Source of the DNA: Burkholderia lata
Lineage (GTDB): Bacteria; Pseudomonadota; Gammaproteobacteria; Burkholderiales; Burkholderiaceae
Direction of reading: 5' to 3'
NCBI RefSeq assembly: GCF_000012945.1
Contig: NC_007509.1
Coordinates: 806,001-870,000, forward strand
DNA: 64,000 nucleotides
Shown: one piece after another, positions 39,491 to 43,814 of the stretch
How the letters are laid out: each line of letters starts with the position of its first letter
Position numbering within the stretch: position 1 is the stretch's first letter
Program-made: the position numbers and the translations under genes
Notes under the pieces: model-generated
Told to the model about the DNA's origin: nothing
Seen by the model: only the letters and a program-made list of their open reading frames with translations
Database searches by the model: none

Positions 39491-39779
39491 GGGGTGCCCT
39501 GGCTGAGGTCTGTCGATGCATATTGCCAGATCGGCGTGATGAACGGATTTACGTTGGCGAAAGCGATCTGACAAAGCCCCGCCGGGAAAGCGATGCGCGG
39601 GTCTACGCGCGCTCTTTGGGGAAGTAACCCCGACGAAGCATTCGACACATAGGGACCCGGTCATTCCCTCACATCACGAAGCAGCTCAATCGCCAGCACG
39701 GCCCGCTGCGACGACCACTCGCATGCATTTGATGATGCCATCGTCGAGCTGAAGCGCAGAGCGAGCGACGTCGACACAA

Positions 39780-39807
39780 TTGACGCAACCGGTTCACTTG
39801 ATTTATC
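39780..39807 (+). promoter_or_regulatory. Candidate promoter for the Thr leader
   Basis: TTGACG at 39780-39785 as -35 and TTTATC at 39802-39807 as a weak -10, 16 bases apart. If used, transcription would begin within a few bases of the leader ATG (39816), so the leader would be nearly leaderless. Confidence 0.35.
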
Positions 39808-39815
39808 GTGGCTCC

Positions 39816-39902
39816 ATGCAACGCAAACCGATTTCCCTCTCGAGCATCACCACCACGACGACCACCGGTAACGGCGGGTCGTCTGGAGGGTGCGCGCAGT
39901 AG
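39816..39902 (+). CDS. Threonine-rich leader peptide for thrS paralogue
   Basis: A 28-codon ORF too short for normal gene calling: MQRKPISLSSI, then six consecutive Thr codons (39849-39866, four ACC and two ACG) and GNGGSSGGCAQ, stop TAG. Six Thr in a row next to a Gly-Asn-Gly tail closely recalls the thr operon leader peptide of enterobacteria, where ribosome stalling at Thr codons when charged tRNA-Thr is scarce prevents terminator formation. Here the downstream gene encodes a threonyl-tRNA synthetase, the natural target for such control. The hairpin at 39922-39956 follows 20 bases after the stop. The leader ORF is seen in sequence; its role is inference. Confidence 0.8.
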   Translation: MQRKPISLSSITTTTTTGNGGSSGGCAQ

Positions 39903-39936
39903 TTTCGGCAGTTGCATACCACCAAGGGCCCCGCCG
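39872..39936 (+). promoter_or_regulatory. Candidate antiterminator pairing
   Basis: CGGCGGG at 39872-39878, just after the Thr codons, is exactly complementary to CCCGCCG at 39930-39936, which spans the left arm and loop of the downstream hairpin. Pairing would break the terminator, as expected when a ribosome waits on the Thr codons. Confidence 0.55.
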
Positions 39937-39963
39937 GCAACGGACGGGGCTCTTGGCGTTTAC
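39922..39963 (+). terminator. Attenuator hairpin before thrS paralogue
   Basis: Arms CCAAGGGCCCCG (39922-39933) and CGGGGCTCTTGG (39945-39956) pair over 12 bases with one G-U, loop of 11, followed by CGTTT. The tail of U is short, but position (between leader and gene) fits an attenuator. Confidence 0.7.
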
Positions 39964-40005
39964 GGCGCTCCGTGTGTTACCAGCACGCATCTAAACGGAG
40001 TCATC

Positions 40006-41241
40006 GTGAACGACATCGATCATCGCATTCTCGGAAACAAACTCGGCCTGTTCCATCAGCAACAGGAAGGTCCAGGTATGGTTTTCTGGCATCCACGCGG
40101 CTGGGCGCTGTACCGCGTGCTGGAAGATTACGTGCGAATGCGAATGCGTCGCGCGGGTTTTCGCGAGATCCGCACGCCACAACTACTGGCGCGCTCGCTG
40201 TGGGAACGCAGTGGACATTGGGACAAGTTCGGCTCGCAAATGTATGCGCTCCCCGATCGATCGCCGATCGAGCCATCAGCCGATGTCGATCACGACGATG
40301 CGCTGGCGCTTTGTCTGAAACCGATGAGTTGTCCATGTCATGTGCAGGTTTTCAATCAGGGGCTTCGTTCATATCGTGAGTTGCCGATTCGCTATAGCGA
40401 GTTCGGTGCGTGTCACCGCGACGAACCATCCGGATCGCTGGAAGGACTCAAGCGCACACGTGCGTTCGTGCAGGACGATGCACATGTGTTCTGCACGAAA
40501 TCGCAAATCGAAAATGAAGTAGCGCGCTTTTGCAACTTGCTGAGGGCTGTCTATGCAGACCTCGGGTTTTCGTCCGTCACGGTCGCGCTGGCAACGCGGC
40601 CGATGCAAAGGGCGGGCGAGGAAGCCGTCTGGGATCAAGCCGAAGCATCGCTTGCGGCCGCTGCCCGGGCAGCCGGCCTGGAATTCGAACTGTCCGAGGG
40701 CGAAGGTGCCTTTTATGGACCCAAGCTCGAATTCAAGCTGGCCGACCGTCGTGGCCGGGAATGGCAATGCGGGACGATTCAACTGGACTTCGTGCTCCCC
40801 GGACGGCTGAACGCGCATTTCATCAACGCGGAAAACGTACAAGAGACGCCTGTCATGCTGCATCACGCCGTACTTGGCAGCATGGAGCGTTTCATCGCAA
40901 TCCTGCTGGAACACTACGAGGGGTGGTTGCCTGTATGGCTCGCGCCTGAACAGATTGTCGTGGCGAGTATCAGTGATGCACACGCACCGTACGCAATGCG
41001 GGTGGTACAGATGCTTGATGACGCGGGGCTGCGCGTCGTTGCCGATTGCCGCGCCGAGCGACTGGAGCGAAAAATCATTGACGCCCGCAAATTGCAGATT
41101 CCGTTCTTGATTGCCGTAGGGGCACGCGATGAACGGAATGGAACGGTCAGTATCCGAAATCGCAACGGCGATCAGGTGACGTTGCCGCTTGATGAGGCAA
41201 TCACGGTTTTATCGTGCGAGGCCAAGGCACCGTCGCCATAA
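40006..41241 (+). CDS. Threonyl-tRNA synthetase paralogue lacking TGS and editing domains
   Basis: A 411-residue class II synthetase that matches E. coli ThrRS only from its catalytic domain on (about residue 242), followed by the anticodon-binding domain; the N-terminal TGS and editing domains are absent. Zinc ligands are kept: Cys109 (LKPMSCP), His160 (QDDAH) and His286 (VMLHH), as are motif 2 (CHRDE) and motif 3 (GSMERF). One visible change is MSCPCH where E. coli has MNCPGH. GTG start at 40006 with CGGAG five bases before. Being a second, editing-free copy, it could give tolerance to an inhibitor of the main ThrRS or act under special conditions. It is preceded by a Thr leader and attenuator, so expression should rise when charged tRNA-Thr is low. 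Confidence 0.88.
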   Translation: MNDIDHRILGNKLGLFHQQQEGPGMVFWHPRGWALYRVLEDYVRMRMRRAGFREIRTPQLLARSLWERSGHWDKFGSQMYALPDRSPIEPSADVDHDDALALCLKPMSCPCHVQVFNQGLRSYRELPIRYSEFGACHRDEPSGSLEGLKRTRAFVQDDAHVFCTKSQIENEVARFCNLLRAVYADLGFSSVTVALATRPMQRAGEEAVWDQAEASLAAAARAAGLEFELSEGEGAFYGPKLEFKLADRRGREWQCGTIQLDFVLPGRLNAHFINAENVQETPVMLHHAVLGSMERFIAILLEHYEGWLPVWLAPEQIVVASISDAHAPYAMRVVQMLDDAGLRVVADCRAERLERKIIDARKLQIPFLIAVGARDERNGTVSIRNRNGDQVTLPLDEAITVLSCEAKAPSP

Positions 41242-41372
41242 TTGCGCAAAGCCACGTCGCGATCGACGCTCGCCCCCTTTCGGAATCGCTCGTTGATTAA
41301 CGATCTTGATGTTGAAGTAGCGTGACCGAAACGGGGCGAGGTCCTCATGAATTCACGATAGAGGATCGCAGC

Positions 41373-41800
41373 ATGCCGTCTGGATACGTGCGTGCCTTCG
41401 AGGTTCACGCTGCCCGGGAGAATACGATTCCCGTTTTGGCGACGATCCCGCACAGCAGCACCCACGTTCCTCCCGATATTGCCCCTTGGGAAATGGACAA
41501 AATCACCAGTCACGCCAAGCACGTACGACGGGGAACCGGTGTATATGCTCGAGCCCGCTGCAGCGGAGGCAGCCGTCAGGATCGGCTGCATTCATCGGCC
41601 GTTTCACCAGAGGCTCGAGACAGAAATCGATGCGACGGTCGCAAACTTTGGTCATGCCCTGCGCCTGACCTGCACGCGTTCATGGGGCCGACGACTTTCG
41701 ATGTTGGCCTTGGGAACTGCGGCCACACCACCACGTCTCCACAAACGTTCCAGGCGTTCGCTCAGAACGTAAAGCGGGTGTGGAATCGCAGGATACTGGC
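41373..41800 (+). pseudogene. Remnant of an N-formylglutamate amidohydrolase gene
   Basis: Pieces of this family occur in order but in different frames. Frame one begins MPSGYVRAFEVHAAREN and runs through PVLATIPHSSTHVPPDIAPW; then an apparent deletion; then frame two gives TYDGEPVYMLEPAAAEAAVR and LETEIDATVANFGHALRL; then frame one again gives PTTFDVGLGNCGHTTTSPQT. The part that should hold the zinc-site SRYVVDLNR segment is missing. The end is indistinct. The ATG has GAGGA upstream, showing it was once a gene. Family recognised from the PHSSTHVPPDI and TYDGEPVY type motifs. Confidence 0.6.
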
Positions 41801-41892
41801 GGCAGGCGGCACCAGGAGGCACCGAACCAGTCCGTGCCTATCGCCAGTCAGACGTCGCCGCGCTGCTGCGAACCACACCCGTCACATACGCC

Positions 41893-43617
41893 TTAAAGCC
41901 CAAGCGCCTGTTCCAGTTGCCGCATTTCTTTCCGCCACTGTTCCTGCAGTTGCGGCTTTTGATGTTTCGGTTTGCGTGCGAGCTCTGCCGTCAGCAATGT
42001 CTCCAACTGACACCACCGTTGCCACTGTGCGTCGGCGTCGCTGCTGGTGGATTGAACGCCGCTGTGGTTCCGTGCGGTCGGAATCTGCTCGGGTGCAGCG
42101 GGCTCACGAGAGGTGAACAAATTTCGATACGCACTTTCAGCATCCGGAAATTCCTGCAAGCGCCCGTCATGGATTGCCCAGAAGCGATTGCAGCTGCGCT
42201 CGATCAATTCGCGGTCGTGCGAAACCAGAATGAAACCGCCATCGAACGCCGCCAGCGCGGCGGCAAGTTCACTCTTGCCTTCCATATCCAGGTGATTGGT
42301 CGGCTCGTCAAGCCACAACAGGTGGTAGCTCGCCATGGACAGCGCGAGAAAGAGCAGACGAGCCCGCTCGCCGCCGCTCAGCGTGGCTACGGTCTGACCA
42401 TGACGTACATACGCAAACCCGGCAGAAATCAACGCCTGCCGTCGCTCTTTGTCGCCGACCGGCGCAAATTTATACAGCGCGTCAGACAAAGTGGCGTCGT
42501 CGGCCAGTTGATGCAACGACTGATCGTAGTAGGCGATGCGCGCCGCCGGATGATAACGCCAACCCATGCGCGCTTCTCCCTGCTGCAGATCGCTCCAGCA
42601 CTGGCGCAACAACGAGGATTTGCCCGTGCCGTTGCTGCCCAGAAGGGCGACCTTGTCACCTGGCCGCAACCACAAATCGTGAACCTCAAACAGGATCGGC
42701 TCTTCTGCCTGGGCGCGTACATGCAGCCCTTCGAAGGCCATCAGACGGTCGGCCGCCAATGGTCTTCCTTGTAGCTTCAAGCGCCACGGGCTGCCACGAC
42801 TGACAAAGGTCTGGTCTTCCTTGAGTTTTTCGACACGCCTTTGCATGGACTTGGCTTGGCGCGACAGTTTCTCGTTGTCGTGCTCGCGCCCCCAGATGGC
42901 CAGACGTTTGCTGCTGGCGGCCAGCCGGTCTATCTCGCTTTGCTCGCCTGCACGACGCGCTTGTGCCGTTGCGTCGGCCTCGGCCAACGCGACCAGGGCC
43001 CGGCTGCACGGCATGTCGAAACCGTACAAGCGCTGATCGCGCAGAATCCAGCTTTTGTCGCTGAGGCTGTCCAGAAGTCGCGCGTCGTGCGACACGAGGA
43101 TGAAGCCGCCCTGCCAGCGGCGCAGGAAATTTTCCAGCCACAATAACGAGGGGAGATCCAGATGGTTGCTTGGTTCATCAAGCAACAGCAGATTCGGCTG
43201 CGTCAGTACCGCACGTCCCAGCAGCAAACGCGTGTGCTGCCCGCCGCTCAGGTCGGAAACGGGTATGTCCGCCGCAGTGGCCAGTTCCAGATCGTCCAGG
43301 AGACTGTCTACCCGCCAATGCTCGGCTCGTTGCTCGCCGACGCTCTCCAGCAACGCCTCTCGCGTCGTCAGGTCGGCAAGTCTTGGCGGGAGATGCTGCT
43401 CGACGTGTTGCAGGCGGCACATTGCCGCATATTGCACGCTACCGACACTGGGTTCGCGGCTGCCCGCCAATACATCAAGCAGACTGCTCTTGCCGCAGCC
43501 GTTGTGGCCGATCAGGCCGATGCGGTCGCCAAGTTTTACGGTAAAGGAAAGGTCCTGGAATAGCGGGCCATGGCCGGTTTCCAGATTCAAGGAAAGCGCG
43601 GAAATCAGGGTTGTCAT
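41893..43617 (-). CDS. ABC-F family ATPase
   Basis: A 574-residue soluble protein with two ABC ATPase domains and no membrane part. Domain one: Walker A GHNGCGKS at 37-44, signature LSGGQHTRLLLGRA, Walker B LLLLDEPSNHLD. Domain two: Walker A GSNGTGKSS, signature LSGGERARLLF, Walker B LLWLDEPTNHLD. A basic linker (about 225-310) joins them, and a polar C-terminal tail ends QLEQALGL. ABC-F proteins act on the ribosome, either as housekeeping factors or as protection against antibiotics at the peptidyl-transferase centre. The start MTTLISALS is chosen as the normal N-terminus. A leader ORF with a strong Shine-Dalgarno lies upstream, as in several antibiotic-resistance ABC-F genes, suggesting inducible expression. 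Confidence 0.88.
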   Translation of the reverse strand: MTTLISALSLNLETGHGPLFQDLSFTVKLGDRIGLIGHNGCGKSSLLDVLAGSREPSVGSVQYAAMCRLQHVEQHLPPRLADLTTREALLESVGEQRAEHWRVDSLLDDLELATAADIPVSDLSGGQHTRLLLGRAVLTQPNLLLLDEPSNHLDLPSLLWLENFLRRWQGGFILVSHDARLLDSLSDKSWILRDQRLYGFDMPCSRALVALAEADATAQARRAGEQSEIDRLAASSKRLAIWGREHDNEKLSRQAKSMQRRVEKLKEDQTFVSRGSPWRLKLQGRPLAADRLMAFEGLHVRAQAEEPILFEVHDLWLRPGDKVALLGSNGTGKSSLLRQCWSDLQQGEARMGWRYHPAARIAYYDQSLHQLADDATLSDALYKFAPVGDKERRQALISAGFAYVRHGQTVATLSGGERARLLFLALSMASYHLLWLDEPTNHLDMEGKSELAAALAAFDGGFILVSHDRELIERSCNRFWAIHDGRLQEFPDAESAYRNLFTSREPAAPEQIPTARNHSGVQSTSSDADAQWQRWCQLETLLTAELARKPKHQKPQLQEQWRKEMRQLEQALGL

Positions 43618-43637
43618 GCTCTTGCTCTCGTTTTTTC

Positions 43638-43699
43638 GGGACGTGTTTGTCCCTGTCAACAGGAGCGCTGGCGACAACTTTGGAGTCGAGAAAGGACTC
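43638..43699 (-). promoter_or_regulatory. Two hairpins between leader and ABC-F gene
   Basis: Read on the minus strand: GAGTC/GACTC (43695-43699 with 43683-43687) and GGGAC/GTCCC (43649-43653 with 43638-43642). The second lies about 20 bases before the ABC-F start codon. Neither is followed by a U-run, so control of translation rather than termination is more likely. A CTTCTCCTT stretch between leader and first hairpin is complementary to the Shine-Dalgarno of the leader. Confidence 0.45.
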
Positions 43700-43727
43700 G
43701 GAAGGAGAAGGCTTTGCTCTGACCGGG

Positions 43728-43814
43728 TTATCGCAGCGCGATGGAACTCAGGCGAGAGCAGGCGAATGTGCTGAACCAATGTGCCAACATCAGTGGGCGC
43801 ATAAGCAAAACCAT
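43728..43814 (-). CDS. Leader peptide ORF upstream of ABC-F gene
   Basis: A 28-codon ORF starting ATG at 43814 and ending TAA at 43728 (MVLLMRPLMLAHWFSTF then ACSRLSSIALR). It is preceded by AAGGAGGTAAAT, the strongest Shine-Dalgarno seen in the window, at 43815-43826. The peptide is hydrophobic and short, and the ABC-F gene begins 110 bases after its stop. This order (strong leader, hairpins, resistance-type gene) is the layout of drug-inducible attenuation. Confidence 0.65.
   Translation of the reverse strand: MVLLMRPLMLAHWFSTFACSRLSSIALR

Follow-up and report, generated by a model that had tools for sequence, protein, structure and literature searches.

The second thrS gene and its leader

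A second gene for threonyl-tRNA synthetase (ThrRS) is located at 40006-41241 of the forward strand of a 64,000-nt stretch of Burkholderia lata contig NC_007509.1 (hereafter the window; positions are those of the window and features are on its + strand unless stated otherwise). It has a GTG start, a Shine-Dalgarno (SD) sequence ACGGAG at 39995-40000 and encodes a protein of 411 aa with a catalytic core and an anticodon domain, which matches the TIGR00418 (thrS) model with 451 bits (cut-off 383.65) and confirms the GTG-start ThrRS-like gene proposed at 40006 by an initial annotation of the same DNA. The TGS domain and the editing (second additional) domain are absent from this protein and from four relatives, while another contig of the genome encodes a full-length ThrRS that has both, its core being 50% identical. 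Upstream of the short ThrRS gene is a 28-codon open reading frame (ORF) at 39816-39902, which encodes MQRKPISLSSITTTTTTGNGGSSGGCAQ before its stop codon and contains six consecutive Thr codons (codons 12-17, 39849-39866), candidates for regulatory codons. Re-reading of the sequence showed that the initial annotation, which had described this ORF and its Thr run, gave the coordinates exactly.

A Thr-rich leader is found upstream of the short ThrRS gene in all 63 distinct orthologous loci, which come from Burkholderia, Paraburkholderia, Caballeronia, Acidocella, Inquilinus, Bradyrhizobium, an Azospirillaceae metagenome-assembled genome (MAG), Myxococcus and Byssovorax. The number of Thr codons per leader varies from 3 to 13 (median 7), and 59 of the 63 have a run of at least three consecutive Thr codons. 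The leaders share a design in which a GGCGGG segment lies within Gly codons and is combined with a GCCCCGCC...CGGGGC hairpin. Sixty-two leaders were located by script and one (L042) was placed by eye; the starts of three (L084, L089, and L090) were shifted to an upstream in-frame ATG. Initially 65 loci were taken, from which two with full-length ThrRS and without the leader (L092 and L093) were dropped. L074, L076, L077, and L081 are from the same contigs as other loci and hence were not counted, and the leader counts are given without genome G598, whose match is near a contig start, and without plasmid matches. The initial annotation had also considered that the Thr run and the hairpin might not be conserved in orthologous loci; both are conserved, and the hairpin pairs covary.

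In 85 other thrS loci used as a control (three with a called length of <480 aa), any upstream ORF with at least three consecutive Thr codons was found in three (L104, L115, and L132), with "upstream" taken as the 300 nt ahead of the first ATG in the open frame (16 nt in L117). The two that were folded, L115 (2136-2277) and L132 (2142-2274), are full-length thrS genes of Burkholderiales MAGs that are preceded by MTPRTTT... ORFs (MTPRTTTTTFTGN in L115) and by a different, unrelated hairpin, and the housekeeping thrS may here have an attenuator of independent origin. The six-Thr run by itself is neither rare nor enriched in the genome: the pattern of six Thr codons is present at 14 separate places of the 8.68-Mb genome (36 overlapping matches, grouped) and the reversed control pattern gives 41 matches. 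By arithmetic, approximately 0.0002 such patterns are expected in 300 sense-strand nt ahead of a single gene.

The last codons before the leader stop (39891-39902; columns 36-48 of leader alignment A1) consist of TGCGCGCGC-like DNA that codes for Cys/Arg-Ala-Arg and is common to many clades. Related leaders before asd and DUF1127 genes likewise end in ...VR or ...VRA. This peptide end is explained neither by pairing nor by the Thr codons.

A candidate promoter precedes the leader, with a -35 element TTGACG at 39780-39785 and a -10 element TATCGT at 39804-39809 separated by 18 nt, from which transcription is predicted to start near the leader ATG. It is the only such site in a scan of 39500-41500 and matches the consensus at 9 of 12 positions. 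Because shuffled sequence gives a mean of 0.7 such sites, the site is weak alone and the case for it rests on its position and conservation: in 60 of 63 loci the leader ATG is preceded by a TTGAC that begins 35-39 nt upstream, and 49 loci have a hexamer with four or five of the six TATAAT matches beginning 11-16 nt before this ATG. None of five SD-like 5-mers sought 16-4 nt before the leader ATG was found in any of the 63 loci. Given the promoter at a fixed distance and the absence of an SD sequence, the leader ORF is probably translated from a leaderless mRNA. The initial annotation had raised the case of transcripts starting after 39902; the sole promoter-like site predicts a start near the leader ATG, and its placement is conserved. 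The trpL of Sinorhizobium meliloti provides a precedent for a leaderless leader ORF (PMC7298713, PMC10117765); like the leader described here it is an attenuator ORF, but it precedes a biosynthetic gene (PMC7298713).

Alternative pairings of the leader RNA and the proposed mechanism

The leader RNA contains six pairing segments. Segment 1 (39853-39863) pairs with 39877-39886 in the fold, and the clade-swap test described below supports this pairing. Segment 2 (39872-39889), the 5' strand of a putative antiterminator, is formed by the codons of the Gly-Gly-Ser-Ser-Gly-Gly tail of the peptide. Segment 3, with CCACCA at 39919-39924 and CCCGCC at 39930-39935, would serve both as the 3' strand of the antiterminator and as the 5' arm of the terminator hairpin 3:4 (39922-39956), which is backed by folding, shuffles and column counts. 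As in the initial annotation, the hairpin has 12 outer pairs, one of them a G-U (39927:39951). Beyond a bulged A, 39934-39936 can form three further pairs with 39941-39943. The antiterminator of that annotation, 39872-39878 with 39930-39936, is right in that CGGCGGG at 39872-39878 is the exact complement of 39930-39936, but it was incomplete, as a second helix (39884-39889/39919-39924) extends it. The predicted energy is -36.3 kcal/mol (z -3.9) for a 68-nt piece containing the hairpin and -89.3 kcal/mol (z -5.0) for the 193-nt leader, and none of 200 shuffles is as stable in either case.

Coevolution of these pairings was assessed with a clade-swap test, in which the energy of the native duplex was compared with those obtained after the segments were exchanged among 14 hand-assigned clades (20000 permutations). 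An energy as low as the native one was reached in 9 permutations for 1:2 and in none for 2:3 or 3:4, while five control pairings gave 10550, 17116, 5999, 11645, and 1761 of 20000, none of which reaches the 5% level. Column counts on alignment A1 (44 of the 63 leaders, 500 shuffles) gave a similar picture: 88.7% of the 3:4 cells are paired, compared to a shuffled mean of 84.1%, and 89.0% of the 2:3 cells, compared to 83.4%, with no shuffle reaching either value. Seven 3:4 pairs are changed on both sides, a number reached by 2 of 500 shuffles. When G-U is counted as a pair, the core GGCGGG/CCCGCC forms all six pairs in 59 of 63 loci; one of these, L094, has GGTGGG/CCCACC, and its change in segment 3 costs a 3:4 pair. 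Because this core is nearly invariant, the coevolution signal comes mostly from the outer helices. These results support coevolution of the pairing 1:2, the antiterminator 2:3 and the terminator 3:4, of which 2:3 and 3:4 are predicted to be mutually exclusive.

Further downstream, a hairpin 5:6 (39968-40000) pairs CTCCGT at 39968-39973 with the SD sequence at 39995-40000 in the fold and hides the SD of the ThrRS gene. This hairpin covaries, with 0 of 20000 permutations as low in the first segment cut as well as in a tighter one; against shuffled segment 5 its mean z is just -1.5, and that of pairing 4:5 is -1.8. The 4:5 pairing, which is exclusive with 5:6, is suggested by complementarity between ACGGGGC (39944-39950) and GCTCCGT (39967-39973), through which segment 4 might possibly free the SD.

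The switch was modeled co-transcriptionally on RNA that ends with segment 3, the ribosome being at a Thr codon, at the stop codon or absent, for the 62 loci other than L042. The mean probability of 2:3 is 0.91 with a stalled ribosome, 0.40 with the ribosome at the stop and 0.17 without a ribosome; at the window locus the corresponding values are 0.93, 0.00, and 0.00, so that this locus switches in the model. At least one Thr codon is far enough upstream to allow the stalling geometry in all 62 loci, and in 49 of them the probability is >0.5 when stalled and <0.2 when free. The complete leader carrying a stalled ribosome was also folded at equilibrium; this approach is unsuited to a switch that acts during transcription, and folding to segment 3 took its place.

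Given the parts identified, their conservation and the coevolution of 1:2, 2:3, 3:4, and 5:6, we consider it likely that the leader acts by ribosome-mediated attenuation through its leader peptide and in this way controls a backup ThrRS lacking the editing domain. The conserved Thr run and hairpin, the covarying pairings and the placement of the promoter lend support to the attenuator interpretation of the initial annotation. In the proposed mechanism, transcription would begin near the leader AUG and the leader would be translated without an SD sequence. When charged tRNA-Thr is plentiful, the ribosome would pass the Thr codons, 1:2 would pair, 3:4 would form and most transcripts would stop near 39957. 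When it is scarce, during Thr starvation or when the housekeeping ThrRS is blocked, the ribosome would stall in the Thr run and free segment 2, 2:3 would pair before segment 4 is made, and transcription would enter the ThrRS gene, with hairpin 5:6 as an added translational brake. In this scheme the start site, termination, induction by low charged tRNA-Thr, the backup role of the enzyme and release of 5:6 through 4:5 pairing are what we infer.

Several observations weigh against this interpretation. In the model, a ribosome at the stop codon still yields 2:3 in many loci, and a probability of >0.8 when stalled together with <0.2 at the stop is found in 29 of 62. In the full-length RNA at equilibrium the terminator still wins with a stalled ribosome (mean 3:4 probability 0.89), because of which the switch must be kinetic, like known attenuators. 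Only five 2:3 pairs are changed on both sides, a weak result that 75 of 500 shuffles reach, and the outer helix is paired in just 76.8% of cells for 2:3 and 68.9% for 3:4. For 4:5, the weak sign of covariation in the first cut (723 of 20000 permutations) is lost in the tighter cut (5462; control 3623), and hairpin 5:6 is absent in the Bradyrhizobium loci. One of the 63 loci, L042 (1320-1500), has a frameshift inside the leader, caused by a 1-nt insertion in the Gly codons relative to L045, and the shifted frame has no stop before the ThrRS gene; the insertion is either a mistake in the assembly or a mutation that arose naturally in the leader. Finally, at least five T in the 8 nt after the GGGGC hairpin core are found in just 24 of 63 loci. 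The window locus has three, and the weak point conceded by the initial annotation, a U-tail of three bases, stands for the window's own clade (2-3 T in 4 of 4 loci); the U-tract is also weak in most of the Paraburkholderia group (three T or fewer in 14 of 16), and a terminator scan does not accept the window hairpin.

The short U-tracts of these two groups and the rejected hairpin, together with the coevolution of 5:6 (0 of 20000), would be expected if attenuation were mainly translational, with the leader ribosome acting through 5:6 and perhaps also through Rho or mRNA decay, and with 3:4 serving as only a partial terminator in the window clade. We regard this as rather unlikely, since 3:4 and 2:3 coevolve as well and in the other Burkholderia clade (16 loci) the 8 nt after the same hairpin contain 6-7 T, which makes it a canonical terminator. 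A combined transcriptional and translational mechanism fits both sets of evidence, and termination in the window clade may be partial, with SD hiding carrying more of the control.

Action of the leader transcript or peptide in trans, with cis control being secondary, is very unlikely. The short leaderless transcript resembles rnTrpL, which together with peTrpL acts in this way in S. meliloti (PMC7298713), and the Cys/Arg-Ala-Arg-like peptide end is common to many clades and unexplained by cis pairing. The peptide varies between clades, however, outside its Thr run, its Gly-rich tail constrained by pairing and its end, and the pairings that have been conserved belong to a switch acting in cis. 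Even less probable is an autogenous translational operator of the kind found at E. coli thrS, in which ThrRS would bind a tRNA-like fold of the leader. ThrRS genes can be controlled in this way, but E. coli ThrRS binds its thrS operator using N-terminal domains that the short enzyme lacks, and the Thr-codon ORF together with the 1:2, 2:3, and 3:4 alternatives accounts for the conserved bases. A chance or vestigial element, for which the 14 six-Thr patterns of the genome and the frameshifted L042 could be cited, has negligible probability, as a chance origin is excluded by a design kept in 63 of 63 orthologs across Burkholderiaceae, Alphaproteobacteria and Myxococcota.

The short ThrRS, its spread and related leaders

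Solved structures of ThrRS cores match the short protein across nearly its full length. In a tree of 91 cores, inferred by a quick method from 53 of the 63 short proteins, three more from the RNA-model search described below and 35 of 36 full-length cores chosen from the 85 control loci, the 56 short ThrRS fall on one side of a branch and the 35 full-length ThrRS on the other (Shimodaira-Hasegawa-like approximate likelihood ratio test, SH-aLRT, 100). The zinc ligands C334, H385, and H511 (E. coli numbering throughout) are invariant in 56 of 56 short ThrRS, as are the core catalytic residues R363, Q381, K465, and R520. Ser replaces N333 in all 56 short ThrRS, a mark of the family, while Asn is found in 35 of 35 full-length enzymes. 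The window ThrRS further has Ser for T307, Cys for G336, Val for S488, Asp for E600, and Ala for N575, a position of the anticodon domain at which 49 of 56 short ThrRS have Ala or Pro and 30 of 35 full-length ThrRS have Asn. Because the zinc ligands and core catalytic residues are kept and the editing domain is absent, the short ThrRS should be active, zinc-dependent and without proofreading in cis. The marker of ObaO-type resistance to obafluorin, Ser at the position of Gly463 (PMC11252418), was sought and is absent, with Gly in all 56 short ThrRS.

At an E value of 1e-150 or better, a short ThrRS is encoded in 19 of 65 genomes of the genus Burkholderia and in 44 of 398 genomes of the family, Burkholderia included. 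The matches listed in a scan of named genomes (80 of 575 relatives) add Paraburkholderia, Acidocella, Inquilinus, Bradyrhizobium, the Azospirillaceae MAG, Myxococcus and Byssovorax. Because the tree joins the Acidocella enzyme with the Burkholderiaceae group that holds the window enzyme (support 99) and places most other Burkholderia short ThrRS in a separate group (support 95), it suggests that the leader and the gene moved together by horizontal transfer. The ORFs flanking the short ThrRS gene differ among ten loci compared by eye with crude ORF calling, and the gene with its leader appears to be a single-gene unit.

No evident zinc gene was found among the six window ORFs scanned around the ThrRS gene, a search for Zur sites not being made; a thrS of an Acetobacter plasmid adjoins folE, DUF1826 and a repressor. 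The ORF right after the ThrRS gene (41322-42116) has no Pfam match and, judged by eye, looks like what is left of a disrupted gene, perhaps one for an N-formylglutamate amidohydrolase. On the complementary strand (41893-43779, -), a gene for an ABC-F ATPase resembling ribosome-protection proteins (356 bits; cut-off 380) converges on the ThrRS gene, and an ABC-type ATPase ORF likewise converges on the short ThrRS gene of Bradyrhizobium L085, as judged by eye.

An RNA covariance model built from the leader (R1) gives 103 bits at the window locus, and nothing else in that genome exceeds 36 bits. In 398 genomes of the phylum it has seven matches above 90 bits, all of them short-ThrRS leaders, and in the order around Bradyrhizobium 3 of 249 genomes have a match above 90 bits. 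R1 misses distant short-ThrRS leaders, given that L177, another such leader, scores only 49.5 bits. At an E value of 0.01 or better, R1 matches 78 of 398 genomes, of which 28 loci and 20 regions were examined (three of the regions repeat loci and two come from another scan); because many matches below approximately 40 bits are unrelated hairpins or tRNA neighbors, the counts at this threshold are uninformative on distribution.

In the range of 40-72 bits, R1 picks up Thr leaders ahead of an isochorismatase-domain gene in family f55, which may be Pseudomonas-like, Thr/Lys leaders ahead of asd, and, in f88 and Burkholderiaceae, leaders that lack amino-acid runs and precede DUF1127 and DUF2917 genes; L184, an isochorismatase case of family f49, and several asd cases score below this range. 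Five downstream proteins were searched against Pfam (isochorismatase, L184; asd, L195; DUF1127, L193 and L176; DUF2917, L191a) and the rest were judged by eye. Leaders with a Thr run and a GGCGGG/GCCCCGCC-like hairpin precede isochorismatase-like hydrolase genes in f55 and f49 (L208-L210, L184, L219-L221, L223, L224, and L226), PF00857 being confirmed for L184 and the others assigned by eye. One guess is that a hydrolase under a Thr leader detoxifies a synthetase inhibitor. Thr/Lys-rich leaders, such as MFTTTKRTTKTTTASGARGGVRA, precede the gene for aspartate-semialdehyde dehydrogenase in f88 (Bradyrhizobium; L195, L197, L198, L199, L202, and L204) and share the terminator style, the frame of L199 being different and the Pfam match being that of L195. 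Leader ORFs of the same chassis that lack amino-acid runs and end in, e.g., WAVGGVVR or REALVR (L170-L172, L174-L176, L193, L194, L196, L192, L200, and L191 at G000:C3:798654-799474) are found before genes with DUF1127 (by Pfam in L193 and L176) or DUF2917 (by Pfam in L191), and two more leader-like ORFs of this chassis (L178 and L222) precede genes that by eye resemble GNAT acetyltransferases.

Comparison with known systems

In neither the window nor six further loci did any Rfam family, the T-box among them, score at its gathering threshold. The Thr_leader family RF00506 of the enterobacterial thr operon, also a Thr leader with terminator/antiterminator logic, matches 39838-39959 weakly (17.5 bits, E 0.59), far below its gathering score of 55. 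The thrZ of Bacillus subtilis, a second ThrRS gene reportedly shown by Putzer in 1992 to be under antitermination, is similar in being an additional ThrRS gene with transcriptional antitermination, but is said to use a T-box, an element that recognizes tRNA itself and needs no leader peptide. Vecchione and Sello are said to have described in 2010 an auxiliary, antibiotic-resistant TrpRS of Streptomyces, trpRS1, under ribosome-mediated attenuation. It resembles the short ThrRS as an auxiliary synthetase under a leader peptide and differs in its amino acid (Trp), its host and its antibiotic resistance; the short ThrRS is without the ObaO-type residue tested.

Leader-peptide control of synthetase genes is already known or proposed for cysS, hisS paralogs, trpS and trpRS1. 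Ribosome-mediated attenuation was proposed for the uORFC-8-2 motif before cysS in Rhodobacterales (PMC8632094), which similarly has a leader ORF of regulatory codons and an intrinsic terminator directly before a synthetase gene; it differs in its Cys codons, in preceding cysS and in its restriction to one alphaproteobacterial order, and the available part of that report mentions no SD-hiding hairpin. His leader peptides were predicted before two hisS paralogs in bacilli (PMC2965389), which also have runs of cognate codons before duplicated synthetase genes, but for His and in Firmicutes. The trpS of Caulobacter has a leader coding sequence (PMC4117421). S. meliloti SEP5, in the 5' untranslated region of an "aspartate dehydrogenase" gene, is a translated small ORF whose codons include six for Thr and three for Lys, and it was suggested to be a leader peptide (PMC10117765); it thus differs in preceding a biosynthetic gene rather than a synthetase gene, and it may be a relative of the asd leaders. 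The T2 ThrRS of Anabaena, a stress-induced duplicate with poor proofreading, an altered editing domain and Zur/zinc control (PMC4787780), parallels the short ThrRS as a duplicate with deficient proofreading, whereas the short ThrRS has no editing domain at all and would be controlled through a Thr leader. A literature search, thin on subscription journals, found no Thr leader before a ThrRS gene in titles or abstract openings.

The probable translation of the leader from a leaderless mRNA, the hairpin that hides the SD, the lack of an editing domain and the spread of the system are new beyond the initial annotation. The finding would provide a leader-peptide attenuator for ThrRS in Proteobacteria and Myxococcota, in contrast to the translational operator of E. 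coli thrS. A broader and doubtful proposal is that the leader and the gene form a self-contained, horizontally moving alarm cassette in which a switch with two layers, transcription and SD hiding, responds to failure of tRNA-Thr charging and turns on a ThrRS free of proofreading, and whose leader chassis was reused in other bacteria for asd and the isochorismatase-domain hydrolase. If this is true, translation would continue with a starved or poisoned housekeeping enzyme, and Ser-charged tRNA-Thr might be the cost of this or even the means to it. With a charging sensor tied to an enzyme without an editing domain, the trade-off between survival and accurate translation would be directly testable, and the occurrence of the same leader chassis before unrelated genes would offer a search tool for genes controlled by synthetase failure.

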